Below are positions 6,485 through 29,769 of a stretch of 37,935 nt of DNA, one piece after another. The position numbers and the translations under genes are program-made. The notes below the pieces were generated by a model, which saw only the letters and a list, made by a program, of their open reading frames with translations, searched no databases and was not told where the DNA came from. How positions within the stretch are numbered: the first letter of the stretch is position 1; every line of letters begins with the position of its first letter. The stretch is from positions 1 to 37,935 of the forward strand of contig JAIQZU010000067.1 in the NCBI GenBank assembly GCA_021776915.1. Direction: 5' to 3'. Source of the DNA: Candidatus Scalindua sp. Lineage in GTDB: Bacteria > Planctomycetota > Brocadiia > Brocadiales > Scalinduaceae.

Positions 6485-7819
6485 ATGGCAAGAATACTAT
6501 TTGTTCAAAATTGTGATATTGAATTATATGCAATCATGAATATTGCTTCATACATCAAAGAATATCATCAGGTTAAAGTGTCTATAGGGCCAGGTAGAAA
6601 ACCCATTGAAGATTATAAAACATTTAAACCAGATGTAATTGGAGCTTATGTTCTCACCAAAGATCATTCTTACGTCCTGGAGCTATCAAAACAACTAAAA
6701 GAGATTAATAACAAGTGCCTTATTATATTAGGAGGACCACACCCTACATTCTATAAAGATATTATACATGAAGAAAACATTGATGCTATTTGTGTTGGGG
6801 AAGGAGAGAAACCAATATTAAGTTTATTAGACAGAATAGAAAACAATAAGGATTATATAGATATTCCATCAATATGGGTGAAAAAGAATAACAAAATATA
6901 TAAAAATGATCATGGTTCATTTCTGGAATCAGCTGAAATTCCACTGCCAGATAGAACAATATATAATGATTATCCGGAAATTTATTATTCCTCTAAAGTA
7001 AATGTCATTTGTTCACGCGGCTGTCCTTATGATTGTGCTTTTTGCATAAATCATGGAGTGAAAGAGATGTATGGATCACGTTTTTATAGAATAAGAGATA
7101 TAGATGCTATCATCCAGGAAATACTTTTAGTCAAGAAAAACAATAAAAATATAAAAACCATTTCATTCCAGGATGATATTTTTGGCATGAATAAGAAATG
7201 GCTTAGGGAATTCATACAAGAATATAAGAAAAAGATCAACATCCCTTTTTATTGCTTATTGAGGTGTGATGTTGTATCAAACGAAATAATCGGCTTGCTT
7301 AAAGAGGGGGGATGTTTTGAAATTGGCATAGGTGTTGAAACTGGCGATGAAAATCTTCGTAACAAAGTCTTAAAAAAGAGACTAAAAGATAGTATCATAA
7401 CAAAAGCAGTTAGAATATTTAAAAGATATAATGTCAAATTTCATACTTTTAACATGTTTGGCTTACCTGGAGAAAACCTTTCTCTGGCTTATAAAACGGT
7501 AGCATTAAATGTAGCATTAAAGCCTGATGTAGCGTGGTCTGCAATATTTCAACCATATCCCGGCACAGAACACTTTAACGAAGCTTGTAAAGACAAATTA
7601 CTCAGCTCCTCGTTTGGCAGGTTTAAAGTTAATTATGCTTATAATAACGATTATAAGTGTATTCAAAGATTACAAAAGTTTTTTTTACTTGCTACTAAGT
7701 ATAGATTTATCAGGTTGCTTCTTCCAATCTTAATAAGATTACCACTGGATAATTTATACGATAAGCTTTCTGCATATAGCTGGTATAAGCTTTATTATAA
7801 AAGAATATCAAACCAATAA
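6485..7819 (+). CDS. B12-binding-domain radical SAM protein
   Basis: This 444-residue protein has an N-terminal cobalamin-binding-like Rossmann domain (FKPDVIGAYVLTKDH, IILGGPHPTFY, ICVGEGEKPI, about residues 45-115) and a radical SAM core whose CxxxCxxC cysteines are C180, C184 and C187. Further core features are FQDDIFG, the glutamate-rich IGVETGDENL and NMFGLPGE. Relatives (BchE/P-methylase type) catalyse cyclisations, methylations or C-C bond chemistry using SAM with or without cobalamin. The codon use looks more AT-rich and Lys/Asn-rich than in neighbouring genes, which hints at separate acquisition. It sits between two glycosyltransferases, so modification of a sugar, lipid carrier or attached group is plausible. 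Reaction unknown. Confidence 0.85.
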   Translation: MARILFVQNCDIELYAIMNIASYIKEYHQVKVSIGPGRKPIEDYKTFKPDVIGAYVLTKDHSYVLELSKQLKEINNKCLIILGGPHPTFYKDIIHEENIDAICVGEGEKPILSLLDRIENNKDYIDIPSIWVKKNNKIYKNDHGSFLESAEIPLPDRTIYNDYPEIYYSSKVNVICSRGCPYDCAFCINHGVKEMYGSRFYRIRDIDAIIQEILLVKKNNKNIKTISFQDDIFGMNKKWLREFIQEYKKKINIPFYCLLRCDVVSNEIIGLLKEGGCFEIGIGVETGDENLRNKVLKKRLKDSIITKAVRIFKRYNVKFHTFNMFGLPGENLSLAYKTVALNVALKPDVAWSAIFQPYPGTEHFNEACKDKLLSSSFGRFKVNYAYNNDYKCIQRLQKFFLLATKYRFIRLLLPILIRLPLDNLYDKLSAYSWYKLYYKRISNQ

Positions 7820-12989: not shown

Positions 12990-14081
12990 ATGTTGAAGAG
13001 TTCTTTATTATTTAAGATAAGATATGTTCTCTGGTTGTTCAGCAGGAGGAAATTTAAATTATTATATAATTACTTCTGGATGTACTTTTGGGAGTGGTCT
13101 GAATTCAGTTCGAAACTGTTTCTGATAAGATTTTTTCCCTGGGGTGTGCCCTACCCTCCATCTATTGAGATTGAACCAACAACGGCATGCAACTTAAAGT
13201 GTACCATCTGTGAGCATACCTATTGGGATGAAAAAGCAAGAAATATGTCGTTTGAAGAATTCAAGAGCATTGTAGACCAATTTCCGAAATTGAGATGGAT
13301 TGGGCTCACGGGTATCGGATCAAGCTTCCTGAATAAGGATTTTCTCAAAATGGTTTCCTATGTGAAGGACAAGTCTATATTAGTGGAGCTGATAGATACA
13401 TTCAATCATATCGATGAAAAAACACTTGAGCAGATAATTGACATGGAAGTAGATTTTTATTATATTTCGATTTATGGGACAACGAAAGAGACTTATGAGA
13501 AGGTGTGCGTTGGCTCAAACTTTGATAAAGTAATGAACAACATTAAATATTTAATTAAATTAAAACAGGATAGAAAAACACGTCTTCCGATCCTAAATTT
13601 CCATTATATTGTAAATAAACAAAACGCTCACGAGGTGATTCCATTTCTTGAACAGGTGCACTCACTAAATGCAAAAGAATTTCAAGTATTATTTACTCCC
13701 TTGCTCCATCCATTTGATGAGGCGAAGGATATGTCTATTGATATCCCATCTGAAAAAAGAGTGGAAATCCAGAATAGAGCAAAGGAACTTGGTATCAGGG
13801 TGATTTATAATGATTGTGCTCGCTTGGACAAACCGCTGATCAAGGATTGTACGGCATGGTTGGAACCATTTATCTTCGCTACCGGTCATGTTGTTCCTTG
13901 TTGTGCTGGTAATGAGGCAAATAGAAGGGGGTTCCAAAAAGAAACTGCACTCGGCAATGTATTTGAAAAAAGTTTTCAGGAAATCTGGAATAGTGATCGC
14001 TATACGAAATTCAGAAAGATGGTACATGAGGGAAAAGTTCCAGTACAATGTAGCGGTTGTAGCGTGTATAAAACAAATTAG
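12990..14081 (+). CDS. Radical SAM protein with SPASM domain
   Basis: This 363-residue protein starts with a basic/aromatic N-terminal extension of about 50 residues that could be an amphipathic membrane contact. The radical SAM core follows: IEPTTACNLKCTIC with cluster cysteines C67, C71 and C74. The C-terminal SPASM region has C287, the adjacent pair C304/C305, GNVFEKSFQEIW, and C354/C357, enough to hold at least one auxiliary Fe-S cluster. SPASM enzymes modify peptides, sugars (for example AprD4-like or BtrN-like dehydrogenation) and other small molecules. The next gene, a B12-type radical SAM protein, starts only 10 bp after the stop, so the two are almost certainly co-translated. An AAGG lies before the start. 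A sugar-related substrate is inferred from the neighbours. Confidence 0.85.
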   Translation: MLKSSLLFKIRYVLWLFSRRKFKLLYNYFWMYFWEWSEFSSKLFLIRFFPWGVPYPPSIEIEPTTACNLKCTICEHTYWDEKARNMSFEEFKSIVDQFPKLRWIGLTGIGSSFLNKDFLKMVSYVKDKSILVELIDTFNHIDEKTLEQIIDMEVDFYYISIYGTTKETYEKVCVGSNFDKVMNNIKYLIKLKQDRKTRLPILNFHYIVNKQNAHEVIPFLEQVHSLNAKEFQVLFTPLLHPFDEAKDMSIDIPSEKRVEIQNRAKELGIRVIYNDCARLDKPLIKDCTAWLEPFIFATGHVVPCCAGNEANRRGFQKETALGNVFEKSFQEIWNSDRYTKFRKMVHEGKVPVQCSGCSVYKTN

Positions 14082-14091
14082 GTAATACTTC

Positions 14092-15522
14092 ATGATAAGG
14101 CTTGCATTAATATTTCCGAAAGATTATGGGGAGACGCCAATGGAGGTAGCTCCCCCATTTAATTTAGGCTATCTGGCTAGCTATAGCTTATTGTATGCAA
14201 AGAATAATGACATTCCTTTAGAAGTAAAAATTATTGATGAAGTTGCAGGGCAGGATGTAGAAGGTTCTCTCAATGAATTCAAACCAAATATAATAGGGAT
14301 AACAGCAACTACCCCTTTAATCAAAAGGGCGTATGATATTGCTGCTTATTGCAAATCAAATATAGATGCTGTTATTGTTATGGGTGGACCACATGTAACT
14401 GCTATGCCTGAGGAGGGACTTGAAAATGCACACGTTGTAGTCAAAGGTGAGGGGGAGTTAGCGTTGGCAGAGCTAATTCATAAATATAATCAGGGTACCT
14501 TGGGAAAAGAAGGTTTTATTCTTGAAAAGCCTTATATTGATGAAATAGATGAAGTGCCAATTCCCGCCTTCCACTTAATGGATATGTCTTGCTATACTAA
14601 CAGTAAGAAGAATGTGTTGCATACGTTTAAATTTGCTTCACCAAAAAGCGTAGGGGCTGCGTTATTGACAACTCGAGGATGTCCTTTTAAATGTATTTTC
14701 TGTCATAATAGCAAGAGAACAAAGCCGGTGAGATATCATTCTCCTCAGAGGGTAATCTCGGAAATAAAATACTTAATGACAAATTATGGGGTAAATGCAG
14801 TTTTTTTCTTTGATGACGAATTTTTAACAAACAGAAAGAGAATTAGGGATATTTGCAGTTTGATACGGGAAAATAATTTAAACTTTCAGTGGGCTTGCCA
14901 GGCCAGGGCGGACATAATTAATGAGGAAGTATTATTACTAATAAAAGAGCACGGTTGTACACTTATTGGTTTTGGATTTGAAAGTGGTTGTCAACGCATT
15001 TTGAATATTTTAAAGAAAAGTACTGTTACGGTTGAAGAAAATGCGAGAGCTGTCGAATTGTGTAAAAAGGTTGGTTTGAAAATATATGGTAATTTTATGC
15101 TTGGTACGCCATCCGAAACAAAGGAAGAAATGATGGAGACGATGAGGTTTATAGAAAAATATTCGATAGATAATGTGAGTATTGCCAAAACAACTCCTTT
15201 GCCTGGTACCACTCTTTGGGATGAATGTATAGAGAAAGGCATTATTCCTTTTGATCTAGATTACTCTCGCCTAAATTTGGGCCGAAATGCGATATCCGTA
15301 TGTGATACAATGACAAAAGAGGAATTTGATAAATTTTTTGAAGAAACTGTTCTTAAAACAGTTGTAACTATGCGGGGGAATTCTATAAAGGATTTGCTAC
15401 TTATTGCCGTGAAGAGACCATCCGAAGTAATAAAATTAGTGGGAAATCCCCAAAAAGTGTTAATATTATTAAAATTCATTATTGGAAAATTTAGTACTTT
15501 AATAAGGGGATCTGATAGTTAA
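14092..15522 (+). CDS. B12-binding-domain radical SAM protein
   Basis: This 476-residue protein begins with an extended N-terminal segment (EVAPPFNLGYLASY) typical of B12-type radical SAM proteins. A cobalamin-binding-like domain follows (IIGITATTPL, VIVMGGPHVTAMPEE, VVVKGEGE, about residues 60-125), then the radical SAM core with C197, C201 and C204 in TTRGCPFKCIFCHN. FFDDEF, IGFGFESG and NFMLGTP are core motifs for cluster, SAM and fold. The 80 or so C-terminal residues form an extra helical region. It follows the SPASM radical SAM gene by 10 bp. Relatives methylate unactivated carbons or rearrange carbon skeletons. Together with the SDR and nucleotidyltransferase downstream it may build an unusual branched or C-methylated sugar, which is inference. 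Confidence 0.86.
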   Translation: MIRLALIFPKDYGETPMEVAPPFNLGYLASYSLLYAKNNDIPLEVKIIDEVAGQDVEGSLNEFKPNIIGITATTPLIKRAYDIAAYCKSNIDAVIVMGGPHVTAMPEEGLENAHVVVKGEGELALAELIHKYNQGTLGKEGFILEKPYIDEIDEVPIPAFHLMDMSCYTNSKKNVLHTFKFASPKSVGAALLTTRGCPFKCIFCHNSKRTKPVRYHSPQRVISEIKYLMTNYGVNAVFFFDDEFLTNRKRIRDICSLIRENNLNFQWACQARADIINEEVLLLIKEHGCTLIGFGFESGCQRILNILKKSTVTVEENARAVELCKKVGLKIYGNFMLGTPSETKEEMMETMRFIEKYSIDNVSIAKTTPLPGTTLWDECIEKGIIPFDLDYSRLNLGRNAISVCDTMTKEEFDKFFEETVLKTVVTMRGNSIKDLLLIAVKRPSEVIKLVGNPQKVLILLKFIIGKFSTLIRGSDS

Positions 15523-15544
15523 TGTTTTTGGAGTTAACTGACAT

Positions 15545-15570
15545 AAGGGTTTTTATTAGGGTTTTTATTA
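15545..15570. repeat. Short direct repeat (12-bp unit, two copies)
   Basis: The unit AGGGTTTTTATT occurs twice in tandem, followed by AG, in the 194-bp space before the SDR gene. It could alter spacing of an upstream promoter, but no promoter was identified there. Confidence 0.5.
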
Positions 15571-15702
15571 GTTTTGCTGTTGAGAATGCTAATTTATATA
15601 ATGTTCTTGTTTAGACGGTAAAGACTGAACCTGAAGAAAAATATTGAAACTGAGATTTTTGTTATGATTTATCTGAGATATTTAATGGCCTATATGATTC
15701 AG

Positions 15703-15709
15703 ATGGAGG
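15703..15709 (+). promoter_or_regulatory. Strong ribosome binding site of the SDR gene
   Basis: TGGAGG lies about 8 bp before the ATG at 15717. This is notable because most genes of the glycan locus lack such a site. Confidence 0.6.
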
Positions 15710-15716
15710 TTCACTC

Positions 15717-16742
15717 ATGAAGGTATTTGTTACAGGTGGTTGTGGATTTCTTGGGTCCCATGTTTGTGAGTTTTATATCAGAAGGGGTGCAGAAGTTGTC
15801 AGCTATGATAATATGACAAAACATGAATTAGCAAGGACTGGCTTTGGATCGGAGAAGACAAGAAATTATAACTGGGATTTCCTGAAAGATCTCGGTGTTA
15901 TTATGGTTAAGGGCGATATCAGAAATTTTGAAGAATTACTTGACCATGCCAGTGATTGCGATTACATAGTGCACACGGCGGCTCAACCAGCCATGACCAT
16001 AAGCTGGGAAGACCCTGCTTTGGATATAACTACTAACGTTATAGGCACTTTTAATGTATTGGAAGCTGCACGGAAGCTGAAGATTCCGGTTGCATGTTGT
16101 GCAACTGTTCATGTCTATGGTAATAAGATCAATGAGACGCTCAAAGAGGGAGAAAAGAGGTATATAAGAGATCCGGAAGGTATAGATGAAGATTATCCTA
16201 CACTGCAAGGTACGCTTACGCCTTTACATGCATCCAAGGCTGCGGGAGATGTATATGTCAAAACTTATATTGACACTTATGGGCTTGAGGCTGCCAGTTT
16301 TCGTCTTACAGGAATATACGGTACTCGGCAATTAGGTGGTGAGGATCATGGTTGGGTGGCAAATTTTGCCATACGAAGTGTCTTGGGATGGCCTATAACA
16401 TTGTTCGGAACAGGGAAGCAGGTTAGAGACATAATATATGCTACAGACGTATGTGAGGCATTTGACGCCTTCTATAAAACGAGAAAATCTGGTATTTATA
16501 ACATAGGCGGTGGATCTGCAACCGCTATATCACTTCTTGAGTGTATAGATATTCTTGAAGATTTGAATGGAAAGAGGCCTGAAGTAAATTTCGAGCCTGA
16601 CAGGCACGGAGATCTGAGATATTTTATCTGTGATATAGCCAAAGCAACAAGAGAGCTTGGGTGGGAACCGAAGATTGCACCTCAAGAAGGTATCGGAAAA
16701 TTGATTGATTGGATTAAAGACAATAAAGATTTATTTACTTAA
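15717..16742 (+). CDS. NAD-dependent epimerase/dehydratase, CDP-paratose 2-epimerase-like, with altered active site
   Basis: This 341-residue extended SDR has the NAD-binding GGCGFLG at residues 7-13, a DNMT acidic strand end, and AAQPAMTISWEDP. The region FRLTGIYGTRQLGGEDHGWVANF and GKQVRDIIYATDVCEAF resembles CDP-paratose 2-epimerase (RfbE/TyvE) and its relatives. The usual catalytic Tyr-x3-Lys is not intact: the segment reads TPLHASK, with Leu170 in the Tyr place and Lys174 retained. Thr130 fills the Ser/Thr position (ATVHVYG). The protein therefore either uses another residue as acid/base or performs a different reaction. A strong ribosome binding site precedes it. Downstream after 73 bp is a nucleotidyltransferase, so a nucleotide-sugar substrate is likely. 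Confidence 0.85.
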   Translation: MKVFVTGGCGFLGSHVCEFYIRRGAEVVSYDNMTKHELARTGFGSEKTRNYNWDFLKDLGVIMVKGDIRNFEELLDHASDCDYIVHTAAQPAMTISWEDPALDITTNVIGTFNVLEAARKLKIPVACCATVHVYGNKINETLKEGEKRYIRDPEGIDEDYPTLQGTLTPLHASKAAGDVYVKTYIDTYGLEAASFRLTGIYGTRQLGGEDHGWVANFAIRSVLGWPITLFGTGKQVRDIIYATDVCEAFDAFYKTRKSGIYNIGGGSATAISLLECIDILEDLNGKRPEVNFEPDRHGDLRYFICDIAKATRELGWEPKIAPQEGIGKLIDWIKDNKDLFT

Positions 16743-16815
16743 TCTTAGTAAATTAGCAACAGATACTAATTATTAATGTAAGTTTGTAGAAAATAATAAA
16801 AATAATTCGACAAAA

Positions 16816-17541
16816 ATGAAAGCATTAGTTTTAGCTGGCGGACGGGGGAAGAGGCTTGGAGATGCCTGTGAGAAACAGAATAAATGTATGTTGAAAGTGG
16901 CCGGTAAACCACTGATAGAATATAGTCTGGAATGTGCAATACAGGTTAATATGACAGAGATAGTTATTGTTGTGGGTTATAGAGCAGAGGAAATCATTAA
17001 TACATATGGTAATGCCTATAAAGAGATGCCTGTTAAATATGTGATTCAACAGGAACAAAGTGGCTTGGTTCATGCTATTGAATGTTGTAAAGATACAATA
17101 GGAGAAAGCGAGTTTATGCTAATGTTGGGGGATGAGGTTTTAGTAAATCCAAGGCATAGTGAGATGATTAAAAGATATAGAGAAGATAACATTTTTGGTA
17201 TTTGTGGAATAGTAGATGTCAAAGACAAAAATCTTATAAGTAAAACATATGCAGTCATCCAGGGAGCCGATCAAAAGATCGTCAGATTAATTGAAAAACC
17301 TGAGAATCCCTCGAATAACTGGATGGGAACCGGGAATTGTATATTTAAAAATGAAATTTTTTTATATATTAACAAGACTCCGATAAATCAAAAAAGAGGT
17401 GAAAAAGAGCTTCCCGATTTAATACAGTGTGCTATTGATGATGGTCAATTTGTTAAATCCTTCAATATTTGTAATAACTATGTAAATATTAATTCTTCAA
17501 TGGAATTAAAAGAAGCCACGTCTTATTTCTCACATCTGTGA
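16816..17541 (+). CDS. Sugar-phosphate nucleotidyltransferase
   Basis: This 241-residue protein has the signature of the RmlA/GlmU-type pyrophosphorylase fold: ALVLAGGRGKRLGDACEKQNKCMLKVAGKPLIEY at residues 3-37, which binds the NTP, plus a MLMLGDEVLV strand at the metal site and LIEKPENP. It has no C-terminal left-handed beta-helix, so it is a stand-alone transferase. It would activate a sugar 1-phosphate to a nucleotide sugar in the cytoplasm. Base and sugar specificity cannot be assigned; the upstream CDP-paratose-epimerase-like SDR makes a CDP-sugar one possibility. It is preceded by a 73-bp AT-rich space with no clear ribosome binding site. Confidence 0.85.
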   Translation: MKALVLAGGRGKRLGDACEKQNKCMLKVAGKPLIEYSLECAIQVNMTEIVIVVGYRAEEIINTYGNAYKEMPVKYVIQQEQSGLVHAIECCKDTIGESEFMLMLGDEVLVNPRHSEMIKRYREDNIFGICGIVDVKDKNLISKTYAVIQGADQKIVRLIEKPENPSNNWMGTGNCIFKNEIFLYINKTPINQKRGEKELPDLIQCAIDDGQFVKSFNICNNYVNINSSMELKEATSYFSHL

Positions 17542-17568: not shown

Positions 17569-17574
17569 GAGGGG
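17569..17574 (+). promoter_or_regulatory. Ribosome binding site supporting a non-canonical ATC start
   Basis: GAGGGG lies 6 bp before the ATC codon at 17581. The GTG codon at 17623 has no such site before it. This is the reason for placing the start of the next GT4 gene at 17581. Confidence 0.45.
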
Positions 17575-17580
17575 CAACTC

Positions 17581-18885
17581 ATCAGAACATTATTCGTAAG
17601 TGATTATCTCCCACATCACCACGTGAAATGGGGAGGAGCAGAACAGGTATGCTATAGGTTAGCCACACTACTGGCCGGAAAGGGGCATGATGTTTCTGTG
17701 CTGACGACAAGACCAGCAAACAATAGGCAGGAGGATTTTGAACTAATACCTTCACCAGCCATTGAAGACTATGTACCTCAAAAAATAAAGAAAATAATAT
17801 TCGATATCAAAAATACCATATTGCCCTGTGATTTACTCTCAAACTTCTATTCACGTAAGGCTTTCAATAAATTTAAGCCTGATATTGTTCATTTGCATAA
17901 CTTTACCAGCCTCTCTTTTTCAGTCATCTCAAGGATAATGAAAACCAAAACTCCTGTTTTAATGTCGGTATATGACTATTGGTTTATTTGTCCTTTAGGG
18001 TTTCTATGGTATATAGATGATTATCTCAAATATTCCGGGACCAATTGCACTCAATATCACAATTCTCATTGCAGTAAATGCATCTCTAAAATGAAAGGAT
18101 TTGGGGGGATATCGGAAAAATTTCTGTCTATACTCCTTTCTTTTAGAAAAGGAATTTTTGATCGGTATTTAAATAGAATTGATGGGTTTGTAGTTTTGTC
18201 TGAGGCGAATGCCAGAGTTTTGGAAAATTATGGTATAGAGAAGAATAAAATATTTGTAGTGCATATTCCATTAGACGTAAACAATCACACAATAGACGAC
18301 GATGTGGAGAAGGACTCTATTTTATATATAGGCTGGTTCCATCCCCGAAAAGGAATGCATGTGTGCGTGGAGTCGATGAAATATATAGTTAAGGAAAGGC
18401 CGAATGTCAGGCTTAATATTATTGGTGGTGATTCCGATGAAAGGTATAAAAGAAAAGTATTACAGATAATCAAGGATAATAATCTTGAAGAGAATGTTTC
18501 AATTTTAGGTAAATTGCCATTTGATAAGGTCAGAGAGTATCTTAACAAGGCAAATATTCTGGTTATACCTGAACAGTGGGAAACAATAGCGCCGAATGCC
18601 TTAACAGAAGGCATGGTTTTCGGAAAGGCTGTCGTGGCAAGCAATATTGGAGGAACACTTGACATTATAAAAGACGGTGAAAATGGTATTTTCGCTAAAT
18701 ATGATGACCCGTTTGATTATTCGGGAAAAATCCTTTCTATTTTAAATAATGAGGCTTTGAGAAATAGTTTAAGCAGACAGGCATATAAGACAGGGAAAAC
18801 GTTATTTTCAAATGAAGCAGTATACAATGAATTATTGGGTAGCTACAAGAAGGTTCTCAAAGAGGTAACGTTACAAGTTCAATGA
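17581..18885 (+). CDS. Family 4 glycosyltransferase (GT-B), possible ATC start
   Basis: The protein has GT4 features: WGGAEQVCYRLATLLAGKGHDV (donor/acceptor glycine loop), VHLHNFTS, SILYIGWFHPRKGM, LNIIGGDS and EQWETIAPNALTEG with the E-x7-E-like acidic pair. With the GTG at 17623 as start, the protein would be 420 residues and would lack the first beta strand. The in-frame upstream codons 17581-17622 encode IRTLFVSDYLPHHH, the usual first strand of GT4 enzymes, and no ATG, GTG or TTG occurs there before the stop at 17560. The most natural start is therefore the ATC at 17581 behind GAGGGG. A sequencing error or point mutation from ATG is an alternative. The stop overlaps the next gene by 4 bp. 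Confidence 0.85.
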   Translation: MRTLFVSDYLPHHHVKWGGAEQVCYRLATLLAGKGHDVSVLTTRPANNRQEDFELIPSPAIEDYVPQKIKKIIFDIKNTILPCDLLSNFYSRKAFNKFKPDIVHLHNFTSLSFSVISRIMKTKTPVLMSVYDYWFICPLGFLWYIDDYLKYSGTNCTQYHNSHCSKCISKMKGFGGISEKFLSILLSFRKGIFDRYLNRIDGFVVLSEANARVLENYGIEKNKIFVVHIPLDVNNHTIDDDVEKDSILYIGWFHPRKGMHVCVESMKYIVKERPNVRLNIIGGDSDERYKRKVLQIIKDNNLEENVSILGKLPFDKVREYLNKANILVIPEQWETIAPNALTEGMVFGKAVVASNIGGTLDIIKDGENGIFAKYDDPFDYSGKILSILNNEALRNSLSRQAYKTGKTLFSNEAVYNELLGSYKKVLKEVTLQVQ

Positions 18886-28678: not shown

Positions 28679-29769
28679 GTGTCAGGTCTTGACATCATAC
28701 ATGATATTTGGTACTTTTTTCCAATTTTCTACTATACTGAAAAACAGTAATTTTACTTTTAAGCTATATGTCCAGGCCATTAAGGATTGAATATAATAAT
28801 GCAATATATCACATAACAGCGAGAGGAAATGAAAGGAAAAACATTTTCTTAGATAAGAAAGACTTTGAAAAGTTTCTTTATTATCTGAATGTCGTATATG
28901 AACGCTACAGGACAATAGTTTATAGTTTTGCTTTGCTGGATAACCACTATCATCTTTTGATTGAAACACCCTATGCTAATTTGAGCAAAATGATGCGAGA
29001 CCTTAACGGGCACTATACTATATATTTCAATAAACGTCATAAGAGGAATGGCCATTTGTTTCAAGGTAGATTTAAATCTATTCTTGTAGACAAGGATAAT
29101 TATCTTTTGGCTCTTTCCAGATATATTCATCTAAACCCTGTAAGGGCTGGTATCACATCTAAACCGGAAAATTATAGTAATAGCAGTATGTCTTATTATA
29201 TGTGCAAAAGCGGAATCCCTCCATGGCTGAATGTGGATTTTGTATTAGAACCGTTTGGTGATAATTTCCAGGAAAAACGAAATGCCTATAGGAGATTTGT
29301 ATGTGATGGAAGCGAAGGCTTAGATAATCCTTTTAAGAATATTTATGCACAATGCATATTAGGATCAGAGGGCTTCGTCAGAGAGATAGTGGCCAAATAT
29401 TTGAGAAAGAAAAACATTTCCACTCAAGTTCCAAGGTCTAAGAAGTTGAAATATTGTAAGGATTTAAATGATATAGCCATGATCGTAACAGAATATTACG
29501 GTATAGACAAAACTACGTTGCGTGTAAAAAAGGTTAGAGACAACAAAGGTCGAAAGGCGTTCGTATATCTTGCAAGAAGGTTCACAGATAATAATCTAAA
29601 TGAAATAAAGAGTTTTCTGGGTAATAGTGTAACAGAAGTAGCGGTAAGTAAGTTGTTTGGTCGTACACAAGAAGAACTGGGACGAAATACCGATTTAAGA
29701 AATGACGTGAAAAAAATAGAGAGAATACTGATTGGTAATTCGCCTATGTATCATGTCAAGACCTGACAC
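28679..29769 (+). mobile_element. REP-associated tyrosine transposase element with 17-bp inverted ends
   Basis: GTGTCAGGTCTTGACAT at 28679-28695 and its exact inverse at 29753-29769 bound a single transposase gene. Each end is itself an imperfect palindrome (TGTCA...TGACA). The left end begins 3 bp after the prepilin-like gene's stop, and the right end contains the transposase stop codon. Solo copies of the end lie at 27129 and 27156. The overall size is about 1.1 kb. Confidence 0.75.
28768..29766 (+). CDS. REP-associated tyrosine transposase (Y1, IS200-like) with DnaA-like C-terminal domain
   Basis: This 332-residue protein begins MSRPLRIEYNNAIYHITARGN, the standard start of RAYT/TnpA_REP proteins. 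The HUH motif is seen in DNHYHLLIE (about 58-66), followed by GHLFQGRFKSILVD and YLLALSRYIHLNPVRAGI, which carries the probable catalytic tyrosine region. Residues about 225-325 (DLNDIAMIVTEYYGID, RKAFVYLARRFT, SVTEVAVSKLFGR) look like the DnaA domain-IV-type DNA-binding part found in the longer RAYT class. The last residues (MYHVKT) are encoded by the right end repeat. Its likely role is to move or process the palindromic end sequences. Confidence 0.88.
   Translation: MSRPLRIEYNNAIYHITARGNERKNIFLDKKDFEKFLYYLNVVYERYRTIVYSFALLDNHYHLLIETPYANLSKMMRDLNGHYTIYFNKRHKRNGHLFQGRFKSILVDKDNYLLALSRYIHLNPVRAGITSKPENYSNSSMSYYMCKSGIPPWLNVDFVLEPFGDNFQEKRNAYRRFVCDGSEGLDNPFKNIYAQCILGSEGFVREIVAKYLRKKNISTQVPRSKKLKYCKDLNDIAMIVTEYYGIDKTTLRVKKVRDNKGRKAFVYLARRFTDNNLNEIKSFLGNSVTEVAVSKLFGRTQEELGRNTDLRNDVKKIERILIGNSPMYHVKT

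Follow-up and report, generated by a model that had tools for sequence, protein, structure and literature searches.

A candidate mobile pathway for an unusual surface sugar, centred on a tyrosine-less SDR, in a Candidatus Scalindua glycan locus

The window analysed here, a stretch of 37,935 nucleotides from Candidatus Scalindua sp., contains four consecutive genes that encode two radical S-adenosylmethionine (SAM) proteins (rSAM1 and rSAM2), a short-chain dehydrogenase/reductase (SDR) and a sugar nucleotidyltransferase (NTP). Comparison with other genomes shows that the grouping of these genes is not due to chance. On balance the data somewhat favour the view that a nucleotide sugar of an unusual kind is provided by the NTP and SDR, transferred by a dedicated glycosyltransferase (GT) and modified by rSAM1, and sometimes rSAM2, through inferred radical chemistry. 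The whole would constitute a mobile pathway that makes and remodels a single unusual surface-glycan sugar. The four open reading frames (ORFs) lie on the + strand at the positions given in the original prediction, separated by gaps of 10, 194 and 73 bp:

12990..14081, + strand: rSAM1, a radical SAM/SPASM protein of 363 aa; Pfam Radical_SAM and SPASM above cut-off
14092..15522, + strand: rSAM2, a B12-type radical SAM protein of 476 aa; Pfam B12-binding and Radical_SAM above cut-off
15717..16742, + strand: SDR with a CDP-tyvelose-2-epimerase fold, 341 aa; Pfam Epimerase/GDP_Man_Dehyd above cut-off
16816..17541, + strand: NTP, a stand-alone sugar-1-phosphate nucleotidyltransferase of 241 aa; PF00483 NTP_transferase, 110.7 bits against a cut-off of 21.2

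The SDR had been described as a CDP-paratose-2-epimerase-like protein with an altered active site, which comparison with solved proteins bears out. Among these its closest relatives are two CDP-tyvelose 2-epimerases, 9rl0 and 1orr, and the best PDB match of its AlphaFold2 (AF2) model (pLDDT, the per-residue confidence score, 91.4) is 1orr, with a TM score of 0.88. In TaTyvE the catalytic triad comprises Thr124/Tyr164/Lys168 and the N125A mutation abolishes activity (PMC13098431), while Asn125, Gln205 and the CDP-binding Trp210 are described for TyvE (PMC13098431, PMC7851689). Thr124, Tyr164, Lys168 and Asn125 of TaTyvE correspond to Thr130, Leu170 (16224-16226), Lys174 and Val131 in the window SDR. 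A scan of genome contigs with the peptide patterns MTISWED and GCGFLGSH, neither of which covers the Leu170 or histidine motif positions, returned 181 SDR relatives. The best 80 of 181 display 55-84% identity and derive from bacteria (Nitrospirota, Planctomycetota, Spirochaetota, Elusimicrobia, Acidobacteria and the candidate phyla radiation, CPR) and archaea (Methanoperedenaceae, Lokiarchaeota, Hadarchaeum and Nanoarchaeota). Methanospirillum stamsii (L095) is a carrier that can be cultivated. In a collection of plasmids all SDR matches were below 60% identity, the best among the matches listed being ∼37%.

Leu170, His171 (16227-16229), His132 (16110-16112), His211 (16347-16349), Ser173 and Lys174 are invariant in 84/84 aligned SDR rows, in which two loci enter twice; position 130 is either Thr or Ser, Gly7, Gly10 and Gly13 are invariant where present, and Asp31 is near-invariant. 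The family has the extended-SDR fold and NAD-binding glycines of the CDP-tyvelose/paratose 2-epimerases and retains the Ser/Thr and Lys of the triad together with the counterparts of Trp213 and Phe217, whereas the complete Thr-Tyr-Lys triad is absent from every row. Tyr164 is replaced by Leu, Gly165 by His, Asn125 by Val/Ile (position 131), Lys126 by His, Gln205 by His (211) and Trp210 mostly by Asn (216). Assignment as a TyvE-type epimerase was rejected because the catalytic tyrosine is a leucine and Asn125, Gln205 and Trp210 are not kept. As the Leu170/His pattern is invariant, the set shares an active site unlike that of TyvE and, judged from sequence, forms a clade of its own that spans Bacteria and Archaea. 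Its partner also differs: the SDR is paired with a PF00483 NTP, while TyvE belongs to the CDP-paratose pathway. The loss of the catalytic tyrosine, and of the asparagine on which TaTyvE depends, might indicate a catalytically dead protein that acts as a structural or regulatory partner of the nucleotidyltransferase. This role is very improbable, as the NAD-binding glycines, Asp31, Ser/Thr130, Lys174 and the three histidines are near-invariant over two domains of life, which is unlike a decaying enzyme. It is tentatively suggested, instead, that the clade could be an unrecognised nucleotide-sugar enzyme, with a tyrosine-less, histidine-based mechanism, whose product would be an undescribed sugar. 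That sugar would be common to both domains, the CPR and DPANN lineages among them, and many carriers would process it further with a radical SAM sugar enzyme dedicated to it.

Two observations on related SDRs are recorded here. In a Leptospirales/Spirochaetes subgroup (L097, L098, L099, L100 and L104) the same motif is found, the vicinity lacks an NTP, and an acyltransferase-like gene, assigned by eye, is located upstream of the SDR. Elsewhere in the window's own genome, at locus L035 (G000:C44:6431-7432), a canonical TyvE-like SDR is encoded close to a gene for a B12 radical SAM protein.

The distribution of the four genes was explored in 199 genomes related to the Nitrospirota genome JdFR-86 (G147). 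The SDR is present in 14/199 genomes and the NTP in the identical 14 (P=9e-22), although this value, like those that follow, assumes independent genomes, an assumption that related genomes do not satisfy. rSAM1 occurs in 16 genomes, comprising 13/14 with the SDR versus 3/185 others (Fisher P=9e-17). For rSAM2, scored at a threshold of at least 340 bits (the matches drop from 348 to 219 bits at this point), the six positive genomes comprise 5/14 versus 1/185 (P=5e-6). Similarly, among 147 relatives of the window genome the SDR clade is found in four (its own included) and rSAM1 in eight, with three shared (P=4e-4). The wide spread over phyla is a stronger point than any of these P values.

Linkage was assessed in 45 genomes selected solely for carrying the SDR. 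They contain 25 rSAM1 matches, in 24 genomes, of which 22/25 are within 10 kb of the SDR, a further one adjoins a second SDR-NTP pair (L133), one is ∼13 kb away (L134) and one is in another locus (L136); 24/25 are thus no more than ∼15 kb from an SDR copy. All five rSAM2 orthologs in these genomes (E<1e-90) are within 15 kb of the SDR. Loci with all four genes are found in Nitrospirota (L036/L127), BMS3Abin06 (L042), Parcubacteria (L114) and Nanoarchaeota (L080 and L102). Across 81 distinct SDR loci the NTP is nearby in 60 and rSAM1 in 24 (∼30%), counts that are lower bounds because of contig ends, and rSAM2 is rarer than rSAM1. When 40 SDR genomes, most of them without a linked rSAM1, were searched with a profile, rSAM1 was detected in only 6, indicating that the SDR and NTP are the core and rSAM1 an add-on. 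The original prediction, which would have been refuted had the four genes not been conserved together in related genomes, withstood this test and is partly supported: the SDR and NTP share the same 14/199 genomes, rSAM1 is coupled to the SDR in presence and position, and the rSAM2 orthologs of SDR loci group in a single clade with good support. Its picture of four genes serving one sugar pathway, however, needs to be recast: the genes are conserved together, not as a flat set of four enzymes but as an SDR-NTP core with rSAM1 as an add-on and rSAM2 rarer still. A strict nesting, in which rSAM2 presupposes rSAM1 and rSAM1 the SDR, was dropped, as G317 and G324 carry rSAM2 with no rSAM1 detected.

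Glycan loci exchange genes readily, and the cassette could reflect no more than a shared, fast-reshuffling locus, in which the SDR and NTP make an ordinary sugar nucleotide while the radical SAM enzymes serve unrelated glycan or lipid steps. The frequent occurrence of the SDR and NTP without a radical SAM gene, and of rSAM1 and rSAM2 apart from the SDR, would be expected in such a case. The explanation is nevertheless unlikely, as rSAM1 follows the SDR across genomes even from a different contig, the two have the same GT4 subfamily as neighbour, and four-gene sets reappear in distant phyla.

rSAM1 contains the radical SAM motif CxxxCxxC (C67/C71/C74, 13188-13211) and four auxiliary-cluster cysteines, C287 (13848), C305 (13902), C354 (14049) and C357 (14058). 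All seven are conserved without exception in 25 bacterial and archaeal homologs, which places rSAM1 in the Twitch/SPASM group and predicts one fully ligated auxiliary cluster, a twitch-like arrangement as in BtrN, a cyclitol dehydrogenase with one auxiliary cluster (PMC6231123, PMC9012708). The earlier designation of rSAM1 as a SPASM protein therefore stands at the level of the Pfam domain; it does not extend to the seven-cysteine SPASM motif with two auxiliary clusters (defined in PMC6231123), only four auxiliary cysteines being conserved. The AF2 model (pLDDT 88.9) matches SkfB, DesII, SuiB, viperin, BlsE and BtrN in the PDB. Although DesII, BlsE and BtrN, which act on cyclitols, NDP-sugars or sugar derivatives, are significant matches, their identity to rSAM1 is 14-18% and their genomic setting differs. 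As the matches are mixed, the fold cannot decide between a sugar, nucleotide or peptide substrate, and sequence networks in this subfamily are regarded as poor predictors of fold or function (PMC6231123). A defence role was rejected, the viperin-like similarity being weak and no defence system found. In the phylogenetic tree the window rSAM1 clusters with Nanoarchaeota copies (support 100/99), a sign of cross-domain transfer, while Brocadiaceae relatives without the SDR form a separate clade within the family.

Several observations weigh against a sugar pathway of the kind proposed. The top fold match of rSAM1 is SkfB, a peptide enzyme, and its best NCBIfam model is TIGR04317, a protein-maturase family (tungsten-cofactor oxidoreductase rSAM maturase). 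rSAM1 occurs without the SDR in 5/143 relatives of the window genome, and in L149 and L150 it directly adjoins a GDP-mannose-4,6-dehydratase-like gene; its substrate, therefore, need not be the SDR product. An rSAM2 ortholog directly adjoins a transketolase gene, unlinked to the SDR, in five Nitrospirota genomes (L144-L148), 4/5 of which carry the SDR. Finally, as no member is known biochemically, every substrate has to be deduced, and it is genomic coupling alone that points to this sugar as the substrate of the radical SAM enzymes. The SkfB match, the presence of SuiB among the top folds and the TIGR04317 assignment would suit a peptide or metalloenzyme maturase, acting on a ribosomally synthesised and post-translationally modified peptide (RiPP) or a cofactor. 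The TIGR04317 score, however, is far below the cut-off (140 versus 380 bits), and no such oxidoreductase is encoded among the annotated neighbour genes. A small-ORF scan beside rSAM1 revealed no convincing conserved sense-strand peptide that could be a RiPP precursor, the recurrent ORFs listed reading mostly as antisense of conserved genes. Given also that the coupling is with nucleotide-sugar genes and GTs, a maturase function is quite improbable.

With regard to the rSAM1 loci lacking the SDR, in L149 (9437-10420) and L150 (10290-11273) rSAM1 overlaps the GDP-mannose-4,6-dehydratase-like gene and is followed by a GT4; in L149 the TIGR01472 score is just below the cut-off. A GDP-mannose-4,6-dehydratase-like gene is also nearby in L031.

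rSAM2 combines a B12-binding domain with CxxxCxxC (C197/C201/C204, 14680-14703), the cysteines being invariant in 8 homologs, and has the domain make-up and motif of the B12-dependent radical SAM proteins. It shares its domain architecture with AprD4, the closest solved sequence, and HpnJ, the closest NCBIfam model. The HpnJ score, however, is 157 bits against a cut-off of 577.6 and, unlike the settings of AprD4 and HpnJ, no aminoglycoside or hopanoid genes are found among the annotated flanking genes. One clade (support 100/97) unites the rSAM2 proteins of the cassette with two copies from locus L087, where the SDR and rSAM1 are also present; the tree does not include the transketolase-linked orthologs. 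The window encodes a third radical SAM protein:

6485..7819, + strand: B12rSAM0, a second B12-type radical SAM protein, identified by its tree clade

B12rSAM0 falls into a clade (support 100/100) with B12 radical SAM proteins of the Nanoarchaeota locus L080, the SDR loci L049 and L067, and L117, which comes from a different genome in the order, so it is possible that it belongs to a wider glycan unit.

The NTP is a PF00483 enzyme with intact GGxGxR, catalytic Lys (K23), LGDE containing the metal-binding Asp (D106), EKP and N224/N226 motifs, which show little or no variation across 17 homologs. It has all the motifs of the AglF/RmlA-type nucleotidyltransferases, and its best models are AglF (166 bits), archaeal GlmU-like and RmlA-long. 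In contrast to these types, it scores below every NCBIfam curated cut-off, is fused to GTs in relatives and is tightly partnered with the SDR. The fusions are to GT4 in Nanoarchaeota L080 and to GT2 in Leptospiraceae L077 (8523-9998), where the fusion adjoins the SDR. In the window the NTP is followed by:

17581..18885, + strand: GT4 glycosyltransferase adjoining the NTP, identified by domain search and N-terminus comparison

The functional unit probably extends past 12990-17541 to include this GT4, as a similar GT4 is located beside the SDR, NTP and rSAM1 in L126, L128 and L129. The ORF caller placed its start at GTG 17623, while the homologous N-terminus extends to ATC 17581, behind GAGGGG. 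In the region 17569-17623 relatives have a normal start where the window has this ATC; the codon is a rare start unless the assembly differs by a base here. One other GT4 subfamily is found in ∼29 SDR/rSAM1 loci, usually adjoining rSAM1 or SDR-NTP, and also adjoins rSAM1 in L149 and L150, where the SDR is on a different contig. No match to this subfamily is present in the window, whose GT4 at 17623 is a different one. Mutual exclusion of rSAM1 and a DPM-like GT2 was not upheld, amounting to a trend only (2/24 versus 21/57, P=0.014).

In the favoured pathway the NTP would first activate a sugar-1-phosphate as a nucleotide sugar, consistent with its motifs; the nucleotide is probably UDP or dTDP. 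The NAD-holding SDR would then oxidise or isomerise the nucleotide-bound sugar; as the family tyrosine is a leucine, a histidine is probably the acid/base, with H132, H171 and H211 as the candidates. A dedicated GT would transfer the product, in keeping with the NTP fusions to GT4 or GT2. These three steps are independent of the radical SAM enzymes, since the SDR and NTP are widespread without them. rSAM1 could use a 5'-deoxyadenosyl radical to take a hydrogen from the sugar, leading to dehydrogenation or epimerisation, its single auxiliary cluster probably serving as the electron acceptor, as in BtrN. rSAM2 may contribute another radical step, for example methylation or deoxygenation, in a minority of lineages. 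Both enzymes may act before or after transfer.

An SDR conserved at 55-84% identity from Nitrospirota to Nanoarchaeota suggests a glycan building block in wide use, unnamed in the models and papers searched; likewise, no named pathway with this gene set was found in open-access literature, searched for the set itself and for radical-SAM glycan topics, in agreement with the original prediction. The SDR is a test case for an extended SDR working without tyrosine, and in rSAM1 there is a defined candidate enzyme for editing surface sugars by radical chemistry. With so few genes involved, both questions can be addressed in vitro. The host is an anammox planctomycete: its genome encodes a hydrazine synthase alpha domain, and Candidatus Anammoxibacter (Brocadiales) is a relative in the same order. 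The cassette bears on anammox surface glycan chemistry, which is only partly known. In the Kuenenia S-layer glycan a 174-Da residue was left unidentified (PMC5088730); no tie between that residue and the cassette was shown.

The window surroundings constitute a glycan locus encoding Wzy, GT2 and GT4 enzymes, a PglC-type transferase, a CapD-like protein, a LegC-like aminotransferase, an ABC exporter and two O-methyltransferase-like proteins. The original prediction of two radical SAM genes 10 bp apart, followed by the SDR and nucleotidyltransferase on one strand of such a locus, agrees with the ORF coordinates and Pfam assignments. As the host genome has ∼70 radical SAM genes, two neighbouring ones are weak evidence by themselves, and it is the comparative data, rather than adjacency, that carry the claim of a gene unit. 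Elsewhere in the window, an ORF at 28768-29766 resembles, by eye, a REP-associated tyrosine transposase.

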